From the IMG/VR virus record IMGVR_UViG_3300027712_000136, positions 1-25,360 of that record: a stretch of 25,360 nt of DNA; one strand, given 5' to 3'. The notes beneath the pieces are model-generated. The model had not been told where the DNA came from and searched no databases. It was given only the letters and a program-made list of their open reading frames with translations. Shown one piece after another: positions 12,985 to 21,370 of the stretch; the first letter of the stretch is position 1; each line of letters begins with the position of its first letter. Position numbers and translations under genes: made by a program. Source of the stretch: a virus.

Positions 12985-14103
12985 ATGTCTAGATACTTTA
13001 CAGTTAAACTAATTCCTCCGCTTGGCGGCCAACTTGGTGACTGCAAGTATCAGGTCTTTCATCATGGCACTTTTGCGCCAGTAAATATTTACTCAGATCA
13101 GGCTTGCACTCAATCTATCTCATCGCCAGTTGATCTGGTTGATAACATGATTGAGTTCTTTGTTGTAGATGGCGCTATTGAATACGATATTCTTCTTGGC
13201 GGTGGAAATCTTATCCGTACGCCAGTCATTGAGAACATCTGGCAGATTGCCGGCAACATCTGGGAATTGTCTGCTGTCTACTGGCAAAATGACGACAATC
13301 TTTGGGCTTCAACCGCTCCATATGAGCTTCATACAAAGACCGTTGCCAACGTAGGTCAGCTATACACTGGCAATGATCTAGTGCGGGCAGCAATGCGATT
13401 GATCCAAGTGTCATCTGTTGATACGGATCTAACCGCGTCTGAATTGACTGACGGCCTGGAGTCTCTAAACAGAATGCTGGACTCTTGGTCGCTTGATGAG
13501 CTAATGCTCTATGAAGTCATCAGGGAAACCTTTCCGTTAGTTGCCAATCAGAATCCGTACACTATTGGTCTTGGCGGTAACTGGAACACAGTTCGGCCAA
13601 TGAAGATTGTTGGCGCTTATCTAACTTTAACCAATAGTTCCTTGCCGGTCGATTATCCGATGCAAGTTTTGAACTATGACGATTACAACGCAATTAGGCT
13701 CAAAACTCTTAGCACTAACTTTCCAGGGTACTTGTACTATCAGCCTAGCTTTCCGATTGCTGAAGCGTATATTTATCCGATTTATGCCCCAAACGCACAG
13801 TCCGGCACTTCTCCAGGAAGCATTACGATTACGTCTTGGAAGCCATTGCCAATTATTGCCGATCCTACGGCTTACATTGAACTTCCTCCAGGTTACTGGG
13901 AAGCGATTGTATTCAATCTTGCAGTCAGAATTGCTGAAGAATATCAGTTCGACATGCGGCAAACTACCGTACAGCTTGGCATTAGCGCATTGAAGCGTCT
14001 GAAAAGAATGAATCAGCGCACTGAAACATTGCGTACTGATGTAGCTCTCATGAATACGTCACAGTTGAGATACAATATCTACTCAGACGGCTACGGACGC
14101 TAA
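12985..14103 (+). CDS. P22 gp4-like head-completion/tail accessory protein with extra N-terminal domain
   Basis: A 372-aa protein. Residues about 118-372 carry the gp4-type pattern: GNDLVRAAMRLIQV, ELTDGLESLNRMLDSWSLDE, RETFPLVANQNPYTIGLGG, RPMKIVGAY, LYYQPSFPIAEAYIYPI, ITITSWKPLP and LPPGYWEAIVFNLAVRIAEE. In P22, gp4 joins the portal and forms the first tail ring after DNA packaging. P22 gp4 is only 166 aa. Here the family core is longer and is preceded by about 117 residues of beta-like sequence: FHHGTFAPVNIYSDQACT, SPVDLVDN and IEYDILLGGG, then a Trp-rich linker (NIWQIAGNIWELSAVYWQ). That N-terminal segment resembles the first domain of the fibre at 21375. The ribosome site is CTGGTGAAAAA. 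It lies directly before the gp10-like gene, as in P22. Confidence 0.75.
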   Translation: MSRYFTVKLIPPLGGQLGDCKYQVFHHGTFAPVNIYSDQACTQSISSPVDLVDNMIEFFVVDGAIEYDILLGGGNLIRTPVIENIWQIAGNIWELSAVYWQNDDNLWASTAPYELHTKTVANVGQLYTGNDLVRAAMRLIQVSSVDTDLTASELTDGLESLNRMLDSWSLDELMLYEVIRETFPLVANQNPYTIGLGGNWNTVRPMKIVGAYLTLTNSSLPVDYPMQVLNYDDYNAIRLKTLSTNFPGYLYYQPSFPIAEAYIYPIYAPNAQSGTSPGSITITSWKPLPIIADPTAYIELPPGYWEAIVFNLAVRIAEEYQFDMRQTTVQLGISALKRLKRMNQRTETLRTDVALMNTSQLRYNIYSDGYGR

Positions 14104-14105
14104 TC

Positions 14106-16403
14106 ATGCCAGAAAGCATACAACTATCGGTTTTAGGTCCAGGAGTAGAGGGTAGATCCAAATCTATCGTTGCTCAGAAGCGCCAGAATCTTTTTCTAGA
14201 AATTAAAGCGGAAAAAGATAAATCTAATCTTGTCGCGTATGGTACTCCAGGGCTAAAATTAATTTCCAGTCTTGGTAATGAACCTGTTCGAGGAATATGG
14301 TGGTGGGAAGCTAGAAACGCATTATTTGCGGTTGCTTATAATCAGTTGTATCAAGTTTATTCAAATGGAACTTTTGTATCAAAAGGAACATTAAAGACAA
14401 CAACAGGAAACGTATCCATAGCTGACAACGGTTTACAATTAATGATTGTAGATGGTCAAAATGGCTATATTTTTCAGCCAGAAACAGGCGAGTTAACTTA
14501 CAATTTTCCAGACTACATTCTTAGATCATATACAGTAGACGCTACAACCCATGTAGTTACTGTTGTTGAACCTCAAGGATATGTAAGTTTATATCGCTAT
14601 GTTGGTCAAAACATAACATTTATCACTGTTAGCGGTGATGTCCCAAGCGGAACTTATACAATTACATCTGTTCTTGGTAACACATGGACATTTGCTGCGG
14701 CAAGCGGCACTATTAACGGTACTGCTAACGTAAATAATGACAGAGCAATTTTGGTCAATGAAACTTTAACCAGCAGGAAAACGGGCCAGCAAGTAAAAGT
14801 ACAGCGCATAACTGGAGATCTTCCAGTAAATCCTATTCTTGGGACAGCAACTTATACGGTACAAGTTCCTGAGACAAGTGCGCCATATCTGATTAATGGC
14901 GTTCAATACGTTATTAAAGATGTTGCTAACTCTGACTTTACTCTTGTTGGAGCTTCATTAAATCAATCAGGAATTGTATTTACTGCAAACGTACCAACTG
15001 TAACCGCTGGTAATTTTGTTGTTGGAAAAACCTACACCATTGGATTTGTAGGGACAACAAACTTCACCACGATTGGATCATCATCTAACGTCATTGGAAC
15101 AACGTTTATAGCAACTGGTGTTGGCACTGGCACAGGATATGCCTATCAATCAGCAAGCGGGCTTGGCGTTGTAACTGATGCAGATGACTGGCTTATCAGC
15201 TATCAAGATCCTTGGCCCGCAACATCTGGCACACTAAAAGTTATAGATAACTTTAGATCTATAACAAGCTCTTACACTGGCGTGAATTTTCCAGGGGCTA
15301 ACACTGTAGTCTTTATTGATAGCTATTTTGTCATTAATGTTCCAAACACTAAGCAGTTTTGGCTATCTGGACAATACGATGGCTTTAACTGGGACCCATT
15401 ACAGTTTGCTAGTAAAGAGGCTTATACGGATGATCTTCAAGCGGTCTTTGTAGACAATGGAAATCTTGTTTTGCTTGGAACTATTTCTCAAGAATACTGG
15501 CAAAACACTGGATCATTTCCATTTCCTTTTCAAAGGATTGCTGGCTCACCTACTGACATTGGCCTTGCGGCTCGTTGGTCAGTTGCTAGATGTGCTGGTG
15601 AAATGTTTTATCTCGGTCGCACTAGGCGCGGTGGGATTTCTGTTATACGCATACAGAATTATCAGCCAGTTATAGTTTCTACTCCAGATTTAGATTATTT
15701 GTTTAGCCAATATCAAAATGTTGGCGATGCTATTGCTTTTGGTTATCGTCAAAACGGACATGAATTTTATCAAATCTCTTTCCAGAAAGAAGGTAAAACT
15801 TGGCTATTTGATGCAACAACTGATGCTTGGAGTGAGCTAGTTTCCGGTAGACAAACAAGGCATTACGCTAATTTTGGCGCTCAATACTTGAACCAAATTG
15901 CTGTTACTGACTATCGCAATGGAAACATTTATATTCTTGACCCACAAACTTACACTGACAATGGCGAGCTTATTGCTAGAGAATTAATAACTCCGCATTT
16001 GTTTGCAGATACTAGTTTTAACAAACTGCATGTTTATCGACTGAGATTGGATATGCAACAGGGTGTTGGCGTCATTGGTGGCAATGCTGGTGAAATCTAC
16101 ATCAATACTCAAAATAGTGAGATTATTGAATCACAATCAGAAAATCTTCTTATAACAGAAGAGTCTGGACTATTGCAGAAATCAATCCAGCCACAGATCA
16201 TGCTACAAGTCAGCAGAGATGGTGGGTACACATATGGTCGTGAAATGTGGACTAGCTTTGGCGCTATTGGTCAGTATTTACGCAGAGCGGAATGGCGGCG
16301 ATTGGGCGTAAGCCGGTCCTTTGTGTTCAAGTTCAGAGTGACTGATCCTGTAAAGGTAGTGATCATCTCAGCAGCGGCTTATGCAACAATGGCGGCTAAA
16401 TAA
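14106..16403 (+). CDS. P22 gp10-like packaged-DNA stabilisation (tail hub) protein
   Basis: A 765-aa protein. The start (LGPGVEGRSKSIVAQKRQNL) and 'NLVAYGTPGLKLI...RGIWWWEARNALFAVAYNQL' match gp10-family proteins, which seal the portal after packaging. The C-terminal half has the family's 'TVVFIDSYFVINVPNTKQFW', 'DDLQAVFVDNGNLVLLGT', 'EYWQNTGSFPFPFQRIAGS' and 'GMAARWS'-like (GLAARWSVARC) segments. P22 gp10 is 472 aa; the extra length lies mainly at residues about 140-380, a Thr/Gly-rich beta region with two related modules (258-298 and 301-346) of the type '(Y)TIGFVGTTNFTTIGSSSN'. The ATG is 2 nt after the gp4-like stop, and the TAA overlaps the next ATG by one base. Confidence 0.8.
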   Translation: MPESIQLSVLGPGVEGRSKSIVAQKRQNLFLEIKAEKDKSNLVAYGTPGLKLISSLGNEPVRGIWWWEARNALFAVAYNQLYQVYSNGTFVSKGTLKTTTGNVSIADNGLQLMIVDGQNGYIFQPETGELTYNFPDYILRSYTVDATTHVVTVVEPQGYVSLYRYVGQNITFITVSGDVPSGTYTITSVLGNTWTFAAASGTINGTANVNNDRAILVNETLTSRKTGQQVKVQRITGDLPVNPILGTATYTVQVPETSAPYLINGVQYVIKDVANSDFTLVGASLNQSGIVFTANVPTVTAGNFVVGKTYTIGFVGTTNFTTIGSSSNVIGTTFIATGVGTGTGYAYQSASGLGVVTDADDWLISYQDPWPATSGTLKVIDNFRSITSSYTGVNFPGANTVVFIDSYFVINVPNTKQFWLSGQYDGFNWDPLQFASKEAYTDDLQAVFVDNGNLVLLGTISQEYWQNTGSFPFPFQRIAGSPTDIGLAARWSVARCAGEMFYLGRTRRGGISVIRIQNYQPVIVSTPDLDYLFSQYQNVGDAIAFGYRQNGHEFYQISFQKEGKTWLFDATTDAWSELVSGRQTRHYANFGAQYLNQIAVTDYRNGNIYILDPQTYTDNGELIARELITPHLFADTSFNKLHVYRLRLDMQQGVGVIGGNAGEIYINTQNSEIIESQSENLLITEESGLLQKSIQPQIMLQVSRDGGYTYGREMWTSFGAIGQYLRRAEWRRLGVSRSFVFKFRVTDPVKVVIISAAAYATMAAK

Positions 16404-16633
16404 TGAGTTTTCCAAAAGCACCAAATCAATCAGCGGTTACTGATAGCAATAGCAAGGCTCATGGTGTTTGGTCGCAATGGTTTGACCGCGTTCAATTGAC
16501 GCTAAATGCTTCTACCAGCAGTGGCTCTACGGCCAATAGACCAAGCAAAAATCTTTATGTCGGCCAGCCTTATTTTGATACTGATCTTAATAAGCCTGTT
16601 TATTGGAATGGTTCAACCTGGGTACATTGGTGA
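16403..16633 (+). CDS. Small fibre-associated/structural protein
   Basis: A 76-aa protein. Features: SKAHGVWSQWFDRVQLTLNA, then RPSKNLYVGQPYFDTDLNKP and YWNGSTWVHW. The 'RPxxxLYVGQxYFDTxLxxPxxWNGxxWV' pattern recurs in phage fibre and fibre-associated proteins, where it may form a small beta-domain. The ATG shares its A with the gp10-like stop (TAATG), so translation is coupled. In P22 this position is occupied by the tail needle (gp26). This protein is far too short to be an equivalent, and no needle-like coiled coil is visible anywhere in the window. Confidence 0.65.
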   Translation: MSFPKAPNQSAVTDSNSKAHGVWSQWFDRVQLTLNASTSSGSTANRPSKNLYVGQPYFDTDLNKPVYWNGSTWVHW

Positions 16634-17109
16634 TTAATTTCATGGTGCTTGGTCTTCCAAGATCAGGCACTGCATGGCTGGCTAATCTGCTAACAACTGA
16701 TGATAGCTATTGTCGCCATGAAGCATTTTGGAAAAATACGCTAGTTCAGCTTGACTCTATAGATTATCCAGGAAAGTTTGGAATATCTGAAACGTCAGGC
16801 TATTGCATTCCAGATGTTTTAAATAATTATCCTGCAAAGAGGCTTATTGTTAATCGGCCAGTGCATGAGATCAATAAATCATTAAAGCTATTAAAGTTGC
16901 CGGAAATGACTAATGATCATGTTGATGCGCTAAATTCTATACAAGGATATAGAATTGATTTTAAGGACTTATTTGTGTTCAACAAGATGGCAAAAGCGTA
17001 TAATTTTTTACTAGACAAAGAATTATCTTTTTGCAGACATTCAATGTTGTGCAACATGAATATACAAAATAAGCCATTGATAAAAGAAATACAAAAACTA
17101 TTTATATGA
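16630..17109 (+). CDS. Minimal sulfotransferase-type P-loop protein
   Basis: A 159-aa protein from a GTG start at 16630, overlapping the upstream TGA (GTGA); an ATG at 16642 is the alternative but would trim strand beta-1. Residues 5-21 read MVLGLPRSGTAWLANLL, the 5'-phosphosulfate loop of PAPS-dependent sulfotransferases. LIVNRPVHEINKSL, with R76 and S84 spaced exactly as in the family's 3'-phosphate site (R-x7-S), is a second diagnostic match. A substrate-binding lid and the usual C-terminal helix are short; family members are typically 250-300 aa, so this is a compact phage version. Expected reaction: transfer of sulfate from PAPS to a hydroxyl or amine, substrate unknown. It overlaps the hydroxylase gene (ATGA) and sits inside the virion operon. 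Confidence 0.75.
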   Translation: MINFMVLGLPRSGTAWLANLLTTDDSYCRHEAFWKNTLVQLDSIDYPGKFGISETSGYCIPDVLNNYPAKRLIVNRPVHEINKSLKLLKLPEMTNDHVDALNSIQGYRIDFKDLFVFNKMAKAYNFLLDKELSFCRHSMLCNMNIQNKPLIKEIQKLFI

Positions 17110-17681
17110 ACAATTTCTTATCAATTGGACATGTAAATCCTATTCCTTCATTGCTTCAGATTAAGAGCAATCCAGATCTATGGGATATGTTCATTGAGCG
17201 AAAGAATACATACGCAGACAATATGCCGCATGAAAGCGTGTCTGACATTTGGGTAAGGACAAGAGATAGAGCCGAATTTAACGGTAGCTGGGATGATTTT
17301 CGAGGCCAGCATGATCCAGTCTGGTATCCGGCGGCTGATCTGTTGCCGGCGGTTAAGGACATTGCGTTTGAAATCATGCACATGGTTCGCGGAGAACGTC
17401 TTGGTGCAGTGCTTATCACTAAAATACCTGCTGGTGAACAAGTTAAGCCGCACATAGATAAATTTTGGAACGCTGAAACATTCAACACAAAGGTCATGGT
17501 TAGTTTAGAAAGTCATCCAGATCAAGCGCTTTGCTATGAAGAAGGTAGCTATTCTGCTATGCCTGGAGAATGTGTTTGGTTTAGAAACGATGTTATGCAC
17601 TGGGTTACTAATGATAGTCCAGTTGATAGAATTACTTTAATTGTTTGCACTCAGACTGATCGGAGGTCGATATGCCAATAG
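17106..17681 (+). CDS. Asp/Asn beta-hydroxylase-type 2OG-Fe(II) oxygenase
   Basis: A 191-aa protein. The iron-binding facial triad is visible as H116-x-D118 (VKPHIDKFW) and H165 (DVMHWVTND), with R175 (SPVDRITLIV), ten residues after the distal His, as the probable 2-oxoglutarate carboxylate ligand. The strand order around it (GAVLITKIPAG, KVMVSLES, AMPGECVWFRND) is the double-stranded beta-helix of the aspartyl/asparaginyl beta-hydroxylase family. Expected chemistry is hydroxylation of a protein side chain or small molecule using O2 and 2-oxoglutarate. Its ATG overlaps the sulfotransferase stop by 4 nt and its end overlaps the next ATG by 10 nt (ATGCCAATAG), so it is embedded in the late operon. 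The substrate is not visible. Confidence 0.8.
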   Translation: MNNFLSIGHVNPIPSLLQIKSNPDLWDMFIERKNTYADNMPHESVSDIWVRTRDRAEFNGSWDDFRGQHDPVWYPAADLLPAVKDIAFEIMHMVRGERLGAVLITKIPAGEQVKPHIDKFWNAETFNTKVMVSLESHPDQALCYEEGSYSAMPGECVWFRNDVMHWVTNDSPVDRITLIVCTQTDRRSICQ

Positions 17682-18442
17682 GTGCAGCCGCAGCAGTAGG
17701 TACAGTTGCTGGAGTAGCTAGTTCTGCCGCCGCAGGAAGTGCTGCCTCTTCAGCAAACAAGGCTAATCAAGAACTTGCCAAGGCTTTGTATTTTGACACA
17801 AAACAAGGCGTGAAGCCATATACGAAACTTGGCAAACAAGCTGCTGCTGGTTATCAAGCCGGTATGCCAGGATGGGCTGATACAAGTCAATACCAGCAAT
17901 ACATGCAGCCTTATACGCAAGAACAGTATCGACAATCGCCATTGTATACGCCAATGGTGAACAACTTGGCTGAGTTGCAAGCTACTCCAGGTTATCAGTT
18001 CCAATTGCAACAAGGCCAGCAGAATCTAGCTCAACAAGCTGCGGCTCGCGGTGGATTGCTATCTGGCGCACAGATGAAAGCGGCTCAAGGCTATGGGCAG
18101 CAACAAGCGGCCACTGGATTTCAGAAAGCATGGGAAAGAGCGCAAAATGCATATGGTAAAGCCTTTAGTCAGAATCTGTCGCAACAACAACAATATGGCA
18201 ACATGTTGTTAAGCGCAAATCAACAAGCTGGAAATATTTATAACAATGGCACACAGACTGGCCTTAATGCGTCTCTTGGGTTGGGTCAGATTGGTGCTGG
18301 TGCTCTTACTGGCGCTATGCAATCAAACACTTCTGCTGGTCAAGCACAGGGTCAGTCCTATCTTGGGATGGCTTCTAGTTTAGGACAAGGGCTTGGTCAA
18401 TTTAGTAAAACTCCTGCTGGTAGCGCGCCAATTTTCGGATAA
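17672..18442 (+). CDS. DNA transfer/ejection protein, gp7-type
   Basis: A 256-aa protein. The N-terminal Ala/Gly-rich hydrophobic helix (AAAAVGTVAGVASSAAAGSA) could insert into membrane, and a long Gln/Ala/Gly-rich helical region follows (YQFQLQQGQQNLAQQAAARG, GLLSGAQMKAAQGYGQQQAA). Low complexity, no Cys and position after gp4/gp10-type genes fit the first of the three P22-type ejection proteins (gp7, gp20, gp16), internal proteins that leave the head with the DNA and build a conduit across the envelope. A very strong Shine-Dalgarno (CGGAGG, about 6 nt before the ATG) lies within the end of the hydroxylase gene. Confidence 0.7.
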   Translation: MPIGAAAAVGTVAGVASSAAAGSAASSANKANQELAKALYFDTKQGVKPYTKLGKQAAAGYQAGMPGWADTSQYQQYMQPYTQEQYRQSPLYTPMVNNLAELQATPGYQFQLQQGQQNLAQQAAARGGLLSGAQMKAAQGYGQQQAATGFQKAWERAQNAYGKAFSQNLSQQQQYGNMLLSANQQAGNIYNNGTQTGLNASLGLGQIGAGALTGAMQSNTSAGQAQGQSYLGMASSLGQGLGQFSKTPAGSAPIFG

Positions 18443-18452
18443 GGTGAATTAA

Positions 18453-19850
18453 ATGACAGATCTATCATCAATGTATCAAATGATGCTGCAATCAACCAAT
18501 CCAGCTACCTGGGAAACCAACCGGCAGCGCGAGATGATGGGTGAAATGGAAATTTCCGAAAAGCAACGTCAAATGGAAGATGATCGCAAATTGCGTGAGC
18601 TTTTTGCCAAGAATCAACGGCCATCAGTTTCAGATATTGGCGCAATTAGTCCAGCATTTGCACAGAAGTATTCTACTGAGCAGTTCAATCTGATGAATCA
18701 ACAGCAACAGATGGAACAGCGCAATCAGCAAATGGAACTGGAGTACGGAAAAGTTCGCGCTCCAGTGTTCGGTAGAGTTGCTGAAGAATACATGCAGAAT
18801 GTTGATTCTGGTATGCCAGAAGCTCAAGCAAGAAACGTATACAATCAGCAAATGGGTCAAGCGGCTGCAATGCTTCAACAGCAGAATATTCCTCTTCCAA
18901 GGAATTTTAGTGCTGAAGAGCATGATCCTCAAATGGTTCTTAATAATGCTGCTGGTCTTGGATATCAGTCGCCATATATTAAGCAGAAAATGGATGTACA
19001 GGCTGAAGCTGCTAAAAGACAATTGCCGCCAGGAAGGACTCCTGAACAGCAATATGGTCGTGTAGAGATGGGTGCATATGGTCCAAAAGTTCAACCGCCA
19101 TTACCAAATGCGTCATTACCTAGCGGTGGGTATCGTCCAGGATATGCTGACTCTGTTCAACAGCAATATGGTCAGCCAGAGTCTAATATTCCAGCACAAG
19201 ATATTGATGCGTTTAGAGCGTATAAGGATTCTTTGCCAGCAAATAGTAAAGAGCGTCAAGCGGCTGAAAAGGCTTTAGCTAATGCTATTAAGCAGAGTCT
19301 TCCTGGATCTAGGTTTGTTACGCCAGAACAGGAAATGAATTTAAGAACTGAGGAAGAAAAGCAAAAAACTCTTGAGCGCGGTAGAGCAGAAAAGCAAATT
19401 GTTCAAGAAACTAAACAAGAAACGCTTGGAAACATTCCAGACAAGGCGGCCATTGAATCATTGATTGATGAATCAATTGGATCTGGCGCTGAACAGTTGG
19501 TTAAAGGCGTTGCTGGTCCTATGGTTGGCATGAGTTCTAAAGCTCTTGAAGCAACTAAACAACTTGAAGTTCTTTCGCCACAATTGAAAAGTTTAACCAA
19601 ATCAATGGCTGGTGCTGGATCTATTTCAGACGCAGAGCAAAAAATGATGTCTGATGCGGCTGGCGCTATTGCTGATCCTAAGATGCCTCCAGAAGCTAGA
19701 AAGGCTGCTTTCCGTACGTTTATGGATGTCATGGAAAAATCTACTGGCAAAGACAATGCAAGCACTGGTTTGCAAATAGGTCATGAAGAAAATGGCTATA
19801 TCTATAAAGGCGGAGATCCAGGCAAGCAATCATCCTGGGAGAAAAGATAA
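18453..19850 (+). CDS. Probable internal virion/ejection protein, gp20-position
   Basis: A 465-aa Gln/Met/Glu-rich helical protein without signal peptide. N-terminal coiled-coil-like stretches (REMMGEMEISEKQRQMEDDR; NLMNQQQQMEQRNQQMELEY), a Pro-rich middle (about 195-260), a charged coil (LRTEEEKQKTLERGRAEKQI), an Ala/Ser/Met amphipathic region, and a C-terminal end 'NGYIYKGGDPGKQSSWEKR' of a type seen at the end of phage virion proteins. By order and character it corresponds to the second ejection protein. The ribosome site is ATAAGGTGAATTAA; its stop overlaps the next ATG by one base. Function by position; no direct sequence homology is recognised. Confidence 0.6.
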   Translation: MTDLSSMYQMMLQSTNPATWETNRQREMMGEMEISEKQRQMEDDRKLRELFAKNQRPSVSDIGAISPAFAQKYSTEQFNLMNQQQQMEQRNQQMELEYGKVRAPVFGRVAEEYMQNVDSGMPEAQARNVYNQQMGQAAAMLQQQNIPLPRNFSAEEHDPQMVLNNAAGLGYQSPYIKQKMDVQAEAAKRQLPPGRTPEQQYGRVEMGAYGPKVQPPLPNASLPSGGYRPGYADSVQQQYGQPESNIPAQDIDAFRAYKDSLPANSKERQAAEKALANAIKQSLPGSRFVTPEQEMNLRTEEEKQKTLERGRAEKQIVQETKQETLGNIPDKAAIESLIDESIGSGAEQLVKGVAGPMVGMSSKALEATKQLEVLSPQLKSLTKSMAGAGSISDAEQKMMSDAAGAIADPKMPPEARKAAFRTFMDVMEKSTGKDNASTGLQIGHEENGYIYKGGDPGKQSSWEKR

Positions 19851-21370
19851 TGGCTGGTCCATGGGAAAAATACGCTACTGAAGAATCTGGTCCTTGGACT
19901 AAATATGCTGGCCCAGTAGATGAAATTATGCCAACTGGCGAAGCATTAAAGCGTGGCTTTGGCTATGAGATGAGCAAGGCTTATGCTGGCGTAGCTCCTA
20001 TGTTTGGCGGCAAAGGAAAATCTCCAGAAGAACTTGCGGCAGAAGAGGCTGCATTATCAGAACATGGCGGATTTCCTGCATCTGCTGGGCGGTTTGCGGG
20101 TGAAGCTGTCAAGATGGCTCCGACAATGCTTATCCCTGGAGCTGGTCCTGCTGCTGTTCTTGGTCGTGTAGCTGGATCTGCTGGATTATCTGCAATGATG
20201 GAACCAGGAGATAGAACAAAAGCCGCTATGATTGGCGGTGCTGGCGCACTTGGCGGTGAAGCTGTTGGTGCTGGTCTTAGCAAGCTAATTCGCGGTCCAG
20301 TTGCACAGCCTGGAGTTAAAGAATCCTATGAGGCTGGTTTGCGTCCATCATTTGCTCAAGCTGTTGGTGGTGGTGTAAAGCGTTTTGAAGAGACAATGGA
20401 ATCTAGTCCTTTAATTGGTCCGGCTATTACTGGTCAACAATTAAGATCAATGGAAAGTTTCAACACATCAACTGTTGGTAAGATTCTTGAAGACCTTAAC
20501 CGCGATTTGCCAGAAGCAAAGCAGATTAATGTTGGCGAGATACCAGCAGGTCGAGAAGGTTTCTTAAAAGCAGAGCAAGCGGCTAAAGAAGCCTATGGAA
20601 AATTGACTGAAAATACATCTGGATCTATGACGCCAGAGTTTGAATCAGGGCTGCAGGGAATTAGAGATCTTTCTAAGTCTATGCGTCCTGAGTATAGAGA
20701 TCAGATTGATTCTATCATCAAGCATAGCCTTGAAAGCAGATTTAAACCTGGTGAAAGAGTTGATGGCGTAACGATCAAAGAAATTGACTCAGAGCTTTCT
20801 AATCTTGCTGGTAAATATTCTAATAGCGCAATTGCGGATGAGCGCAGAGTTGGCGATGCAATTCTAGAAACTCAAAGTCAATTGCATAACATGATGGAGC
20901 TTCAGAATCCAGAATATGCAACTCAATTACGCAATGCAGATCGAGCTTATTTTGAAATTCGTCAACTCGGTAAGGCTATGACTTCATCCGTAAAAGATGA
21001 GCTTGCTACTCCAAGCCAGCTATTGCAAGCGCTTAGGGCAAAAGATAGGACTGGATTTTCTCGCGGCAATTTACCGTTGCAAGAATACGCTGAAACAGCA
21101 CAAAAACTTGTTGGCAATCGTTATCCTGAATCCGGTACTGCTGGCCGCTTACAAGCAAAAGATGTCATGGCGGCTGGAGCAACCGGCTTTATTCCTGGCT
21201 TTGCGGCTGCTTATGCGGCTAAAGGTTTATATGCACCAGCAATTCAAGATTTTCTTGTTAGGCAAACATTTAAAGAGCCAGGACTAATGAGGCTTATGGC
21301 TATGGACGCGGCTAAACGTACATCACCGGCACTGGGCGCGGCTGGCGCATCATCAACACTGAACAGGTAA
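19850..21370 (+). CDS. Probable membrane-active DNA ejection protein, gp16-position
   Basis: A 506-aa protein. It opens with a tandem motif GPWEKYA...GPWTKYAG (residues 3-19), then a Gly/Ala-rich hydrophobic region at about 85-150 (APTMLIPGAGPAAVLGRVAG; AAMIGGAGALGGEAVGAGLS) able to form membrane-inserting hairpins. A long charged helical region (about 160-430) follows, and then a second Gly/Ala hydrophobic stretch (VMAAGATGFIPGFAAAYAAK) near the C-terminus. Hydrophobic glycine-rich hairpins in a soluble helical protein are typical of ejected pore proteins. It is the third gene of the trio after gp4/gp10-type genes, as in P22. TAATG overlap with the upstream gene. No peptidoglycan-hydrolase motif is evident. 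Confidence 0.65.
   Translation: MAGPWEKYATEESGPWTKYAGPVDEIMPTGEALKRGFGYEMSKAYAGVAPMFGGKGKSPEELAAEEAALSEHGGFPASAGRFAGEAVKMAPTMLIPGAGPAAVLGRVAGSAGLSAMMEPGDRTKAAMIGGAGALGGEAVGAGLSKLIRGPVAQPGVKESYEAGLRPSFAQAVGGGVKRFEETMESSPLIGPAITGQQLRSMESFNTSTVGKILEDLNRDLPEAKQINVGEIPAGREGFLKAEQAAKEAYGKLTENTSGSMTPEFESGLQGIRDLSKSMRPEYRDQIDSIIKHSLESRFKPGERVDGVTIKEIDSELSNLAGKYSNSAIADERRVGDAILETQSQLHNMMELQNPEYATQLRNADRAYFEIRQLGKAMTSSVKDELATPSQLLQALRAKDRTGFSRGNLPLQEYAETAQKLVGNRYPESGTAGRLQAKDVMAAGATGFIPGFAAAYAAKGLYAPAIQDFLVRQTFKEPGLMRLMAMDAAKRTSPALGAAGASSTLNR

Follow-up and report, generated by a model that had tools for sequence, protein, structure and literature searches.

Short-tailed phages carry ejection proteins that traverse the portal and reassemble into a conduit spanning the host envelope. 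In P22, a small gene (gene 14) lies between the neck/needle genes and the first ejection gene, and GNAT genes hold the same place in Pam1 and PBR31. Gene 14 belongs to PF11039 (DUF2824) and the GNATs have another fold; the likeness of both to the two genes described here is positional, and homology is not claimed. Rac of LUZ19 and phiKMV likewise modifies proteins and has its gene next to those of structural proteins, but it is a GNAT that targets the host RNA polymerase and has a different operon position (PMC7552054).

PAPS sulfotransferases (TPST1/2, Sulfotransfer_3) carry a 5'-loop PRSGT and an R-x7-S motif. Both are found in one of our two proteins (hereafter ST), which differs from these enzymes in having only 159 aa and in scoring below the Pfam cut-offs. 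Siphophages, including Nipunavirus, encode members of the same family (phrog_10855) near denV/nrdJ or before the endolysin gene, without the second protein (hereafter BH). BH resembles the Asp/Asn beta-hydroxylases of PF05118 (AspH, LpxO, L-proline cis-4-hydroxylase), since it passes the Pfam cut-off and has the HxD...H triad, the Arg and the double-stranded beta-helix (DSBH); unlike other members, it has ~190 aa, is phage-specific and is encoded in an ejection operon. Its predicted substrate, the N-terminal proline of a virion protein, also sets it apart from its PF05118 kin, which act on EGF-domain Asp/Asn, lipid A or free proline. In the open-licence literature, we found no paper on phage sulfotransferase-hydroxylase pairs or on N-terminal prolyl hydroxylation of ejection proteins.

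The window, that is, the whole stretch of DNA analysed, is a viral record of 25.4 kb with a late operon of the P22-like type; a DNA-level search of isolated phages gave no match to it. The features of this operon used below are as follows:

14106–16403, + strand: head closure Hc3-like gene, upstream flank (phrog_578, E 2.8e-92)
16403–16633, + strand: 76-aa fibre-like remnant (phrog_20787, 7e-11)
16630–17109, + strand: ST, 159 aa from a GTG start, a compact sulfotransferase-like protein of the PAPS type
16639–17810, + strand: block exchanged relative to the close relative L012 (blastn)
17106–17681, + strand: BH, 2OG-Fe(II) oxygenase of the PF05118 family, 191 aa
17662–17667, + strand: Shine-Dalgarno GGAGGT of EJ, within BH (from the sequence)
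17672–18442, + strand: EJ, first DNA ejection protein (P22 gene 7 position), ATG at 17672 (phrog_598, 2.2e-8)
17675–17677, + strand: Pro2 codon (CCA) of EJ, the proposed target of BH
18453–19850, + strand: second ejection-set gene, assigned by position
19850–21370, + strand: third ejection-set gene, assigned by position

A first-pass annotation of this DNA had placed ST and BH as overlapping genes between neck and ejection genes. Re-reading the sequence confirmed their coordinates, the overlaps (GTGA at 16630–16633, ATGA at 17106–17109 and 10 nt between BH and EJ at 17672–17681) and the motifs assigned to them (GLPRSGTAW and R76/S84 in ST; H116/D118/H165/R175 in BH), and the profile matches of the flanking genes, Hc3 upstream and DNA ejection downstream, bore out the location. 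The 76-aa protein just upstream of ST resembles the N-terminal part of a longer fibre-like protein that has 230–1100 aa in relatives, and the remainder beyond the N-terminus is missing in the window.

At the position of the GTG start of ST, the aligned relatives have ATG. GLPRSGTAW spans residues 8–16 and includes the loop P10-R11-S12-G13-T14; in an alignment of 38 relatives, P10, R11, W16 and H30 were invariant and S12, T14, R76 and S84 nearly so, and thus both PAPS features, the 5'-PSB loop and the 3'-PB Arg/Ser, are present across the 38 sequences. Against PF13469, ST scored 17.9 with a cut-off of 27, below the gathering scores of the Pfam Sulfotransfer families, and 18/38 relatives matched this profile at E <= 0.01. 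It also matched phrog_10855 (2e-28; 48 phage records, ~30–35% identity), whose label 'hydrolase' probably reflects the P-loop; PaMx25 gp68 of Nipunavirus (L003:6013–6534), for example, carries the sulfotransferase-type PRSGT loop under the names 'hydrolase' and 'nucleotide triphosphate hydrolase'. The AlphaFold2 model of ST (pLDDT 95.8) had human TPST1 as its top Foldseek match (E 1.7e-4), and sulfotransferases ranked first by fold at Z ~10.5 (VIA, Z 10.6), with P-loop kinases close behind at Z 9.3.

In BH, H116, D118 and H165 (iron triad) and R175 (2OG-binding Arg) were all invariant among 36 relatives and the AlphaFold2 model (pLDDT 93.5) has the DSBH fold. BH scored 26.9 bits against PF05118 (cut-off 22.6), and 35/36 relatives matched at E <= 0.01. 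The folds nearest to it were 7v4m at Z 15.8, proline 3-hydroxylase at Z 15.4 and, by Foldseek at 3e-8, L-proline cis-4-hydroxylase, with a nucleoside-antibiotic beta-hydroxylase among the closest; other protein hydroxylases, AspH and PHD2, reached Z ~13.8, and the range from AspH through proline 3-hydroxylase and cis-4-hydroxylase to 7v4m was 13.8–15.8. The BH family is virtually confined to viruses, with 3 loci in 84,980 bacterial and archaeal genomes, at least one of which (L321, from Rhodanobacteraceae) lies in a prophage-like neck-ejection region, and it seldom occurs apart from EJ. Strong purifying selection was found among relatives for both BH (dN/dS 0.015–0.07) and ST (dN/dS 0.05–0.13), which indicates that both are real genes.

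We then collected IMG/VR relatives of the neck, ejection, ST and BH genes, and clustering at 90% gave 52 ST and 47 BH clusters. In 21 of the 52 ST clusters, ST was directly adjacent to BH (18 with ST first and 3 with BH first), and it was nearby in one more (L240); the pairing on which the first-pass annotation had remarked therefore recurs in many other phages and in both orders, beyond what chance would give. The slot before EJ was filled differently from phage to phage, by ST and BH, ST alone, cupin, BH and cupin, GNATs, ST-GNAT fusions or a cupin-SET fusion. In L110 (5959–6999) and L111 (5865–6932), ST and a GNAT domain form one ORF directly before EJ, and in L107 (5655–6467) the cupin-SET fusion (PF00856) has that place. 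Of 45 non-truncated BH clusters, 18 had ST, 21 cupin, 1 GNAT and 5 none of these; not one had both ST and cupin, an outcome with a chance of ~8e-8 if the two were independent, although relatedness weakens this figure. BH and the slot cupin showed no similarity in hhalign, and homology between them was rejected.

The exchange can be followed in L012, a close relative (92.6% DNA identity over 13017–16638) that has a cupin where the window has ST and BH. The replaced block takes in ST and BH and reaches ~46 codons into EJ; because the cassette and the start of EJ had been exchanged together, the EJ N-terminus was examined for a link with BH. We regard ST and BH as a cassette of modifying enzymes that is open to exchange and lies ahead of the first ejection gene of P22-type podophages.

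Pairs were also seen in other settings. An ST-BH pair exists outside the slot in L333 (3499–4558), where it lies beside terminase-like genes in an 8.5-kb locus with no ejection gene. L008 (PQ492659.1) is a phage record of 39 kb under the label Inoviridae, in which a GNAT (scoring above the PF00583 cut-off) comes after a distant BH. A Bacteroidetes contig (L323:5551–7597) carries a distant BH-like gene near a protein on the opposite strand that has the motif PPRTRST; the two may be a further hydroxylase-sulfotransferase pairing.

EJ starts with Met-Pro in 41/42 distinct loci with BH but in only 10/55 (18%) without it (Fisher 1.1e-16); this count omits three loci with unclear starts, two of which (L298 and L275), together with the unlisted L319, show MPWG or MPAG on inspection. 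Start codons were picked by Shine-Dalgarno match, except that those of ten added loci were assigned manually, mostly with Shine-Dalgarno support; 32 of 41 EJ genes checked match DNA-ejection PHROGs, and the others were identified by position. In-frame TAG codons occur within the EJ genes of L298 (five, from 5683) and L275 (one, from 5510), which suggests amber recoding or assembly errors. Pro2 accompanied BH with cupin in 20/20 loci and cupin without BH in 0/17, and EJs with ST only were mostly without it. Furthermore, on a tree built from the EJ core with the N-terminus excluded, 18 independent BH contrasts comprised 16 in which only the member with BH had Pro2, none of the reverse and 2 ties (p 1.5e-5); one tie is L018, in which BH was recently deleted and Pro2 is still there.

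Two other sources of this association were rejected. Other genes of the same loci had Pro2 at a background of 13%, whether BH was present or not, and thus Pro2 is not a general feature of these genomes. In addition, Pro2 was present in 19/20 loci with a BH-EJ gap of more than 30 nt, 15 of them with ST or cupin genes in between, and the link was maintained across separations of 300–960 nt; therefore, Pro2 is not an artefact of gene overlap. Among EJs with BH, Pro2 alone is nearly fixed and positions 3–12 vary, position 3 being W in 22, F in 13, I, A and L in 2 each and V in 1. BH relatives down to ~30% identity retain EJ Pro2.

A prediction of Pro2, specified beforehand for new loci, was borne out in 43/44 distinct loci by the automatic rule and in 18/18 of those recognised by the EJ profile. 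After inspection, the held-out set stood at 43/43 ejection contexts: the true EJ of L396, skipped by the rule, starts MPWA, and L333 has no EJ context. Because of kinship among these loci and with the search set, they do not represent 43 independent events; in total, ~85 distinct related viral loci lie behind the link. The single clear exception is PfAn1 of P. fluorescens (L007), which has BH and a GNAT and an EJ that starts MVAAA.

Taken together, these results suggest that the proline left at the N-terminus of EJ once its methionine is removed is the probable target of hydroxylation by BH. Methionine aminopeptidase removes Met1 where residue 2 is Pro. The host enzyme would thus strip Met1 from EJ and expose Pro2, a secondary amine that would resemble free proline, on which the nearest folds of BH act, and BH would hydroxylate it before EJ is packaged. 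The modification might then protect EJ against aminopeptidases, help its Ala/Gly-rich N-terminus into the membrane or serve in packaging. Sequence, fold and co-variation are the basis on which we infer catalysis by BH, the substrate and any consequence for ejection. An N-terminus of the EJ type can be processed, because P22 gp7 loses its N-terminal 20 residues to a host protease (record annotation). Counting against this reading are the PfAn1 exception, the Pro2 in 18% of EJs without BH, from which it follows that Pro2 has uses without BH, the absence of a nearby EJ in L333, and the likeness of the fold to AspH and PHD2 as well. The first-pass annotation had pointed to a virion protein or the host surface as the target; the Pro2 association makes a virion protein, EJ, the most likely target of BH, and we found no evidence for the host surface.

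The association could instead reflect co-inheritance only, with BH and the EJ N-terminus recombining as one block and the substrate of BH lying elsewhere, in another virion protein or in the W/F at position 3. EJ N-termini may indeed travel with BH as a linked block, as the block swapped between the window and L012 takes in part of EJ and L018 keeps Pro2 after losing BH, but passive linkage does not readily account for near-fixation of Pro2 alone among variable positions 3–12, for its persistence when 300–960 nt and other genes intervene, or for its retention in relatives as distant as ~30% identity, and we consider this explanation unlikely. That BH works on small molecules, hydroxylating lipid A as LpxO does or else free amino acids, is highly improbable; free-proline hydroxylases are among its closest folds, but this would leave the association with EJ Pro2 unexplained, and the match to the LpxO profile is weak (NCBIfam NF033391, 18.1 bits with a cut-off of 500), so that LpxO was rejected as an identity for BH. 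A broader alternative takes ST, BH, GNAT and cupin as late enzymes directed at the host (transcription, surface or defence), with the slot merely giving late expression. It has a precedent in Rac, the GNAT that phiKMV-like phages encode next to structural genes and that inactivates the host RNA polymerase (PMC7552054), and it is favoured by the siphophage relatives of ST, which sit off the ejection genes. Set against these are the linkage of BH to EJ and to its residue 2 and the lack of any PADLOC match, on which a role of ST or BH in defence or counter-defence was dismissed. We rate it as quite improbable, although ST by itself may be directed at the host.

The first-pass annotation had also suggested a two-step scheme in which BH supplies a new hydroxyl and ST then sulfates it; at the EJ N-terminus, the product could be hydroxyproline-O-sulfate. 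The recurring adjacency in both orders favours such a pathway, as does the co-occurrence of ST and BH in a comparison centred on EJ (odds ratio 31.5, p 1e-8), in which the loci had partly been found through ST and BH searches. As a coupled or obligate pathway, though, it did not survive comparison: BH with cupin and no ST is as common as BH with ST (21 vs 18 clusters), ST stands alone directly before EJ in L142, L150, L190 and L210, most EJs with ST only lack Pro2, and ST is still constrained after a clean BH deletion (L016/L018; dN/dS 0.14, two sequences). ST is thus separable from BH by these comparisons, and we judge the two-step scheme very unlikely; sulfation of hydroxyproline would be possible only within the subset with both genes. 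The target of ST is probably a part of the ejection machinery or some other late protein, modified independently of BH. EJ Tyr40 was considered as its acceptor (15/16 vs 5/34; Fisher 9.5e-8, uncorrected) and set aside, since phylogenetic pairing gave 3 vs 0 with 10 ties (p 0.125) and the site is a conserved aromatic position, with F, R or K in some EJs that accompany ST. A screen of the second and third ejection proteins for associated residues gave nothing strong.

For the P22-type podophages as a group, we tentatively propose, as a conjecture that may well prove too broad, a dedicated slot for EJ modification whose enzymes (N-terminal prolyl hydroxylase, sulfotransferase, cupin, GNAT and SET) can stand in for one another and chemically mature the ejection apparatus before packaging, with BH as the dedicated N-terminal prolyl hydroxylase. 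The reading of BH as acting on Pro2 is a prediction about one residue and is decidable by a single mass spectrum. If true, N-terminal hydroxylation of EJ would be a post-translational step in phage assembly that is undescribed in the open-licence literature searched, and it would suggest why a small gene without an assigned role, P22 gene 14 or what replaces it, precedes the first ejection gene.
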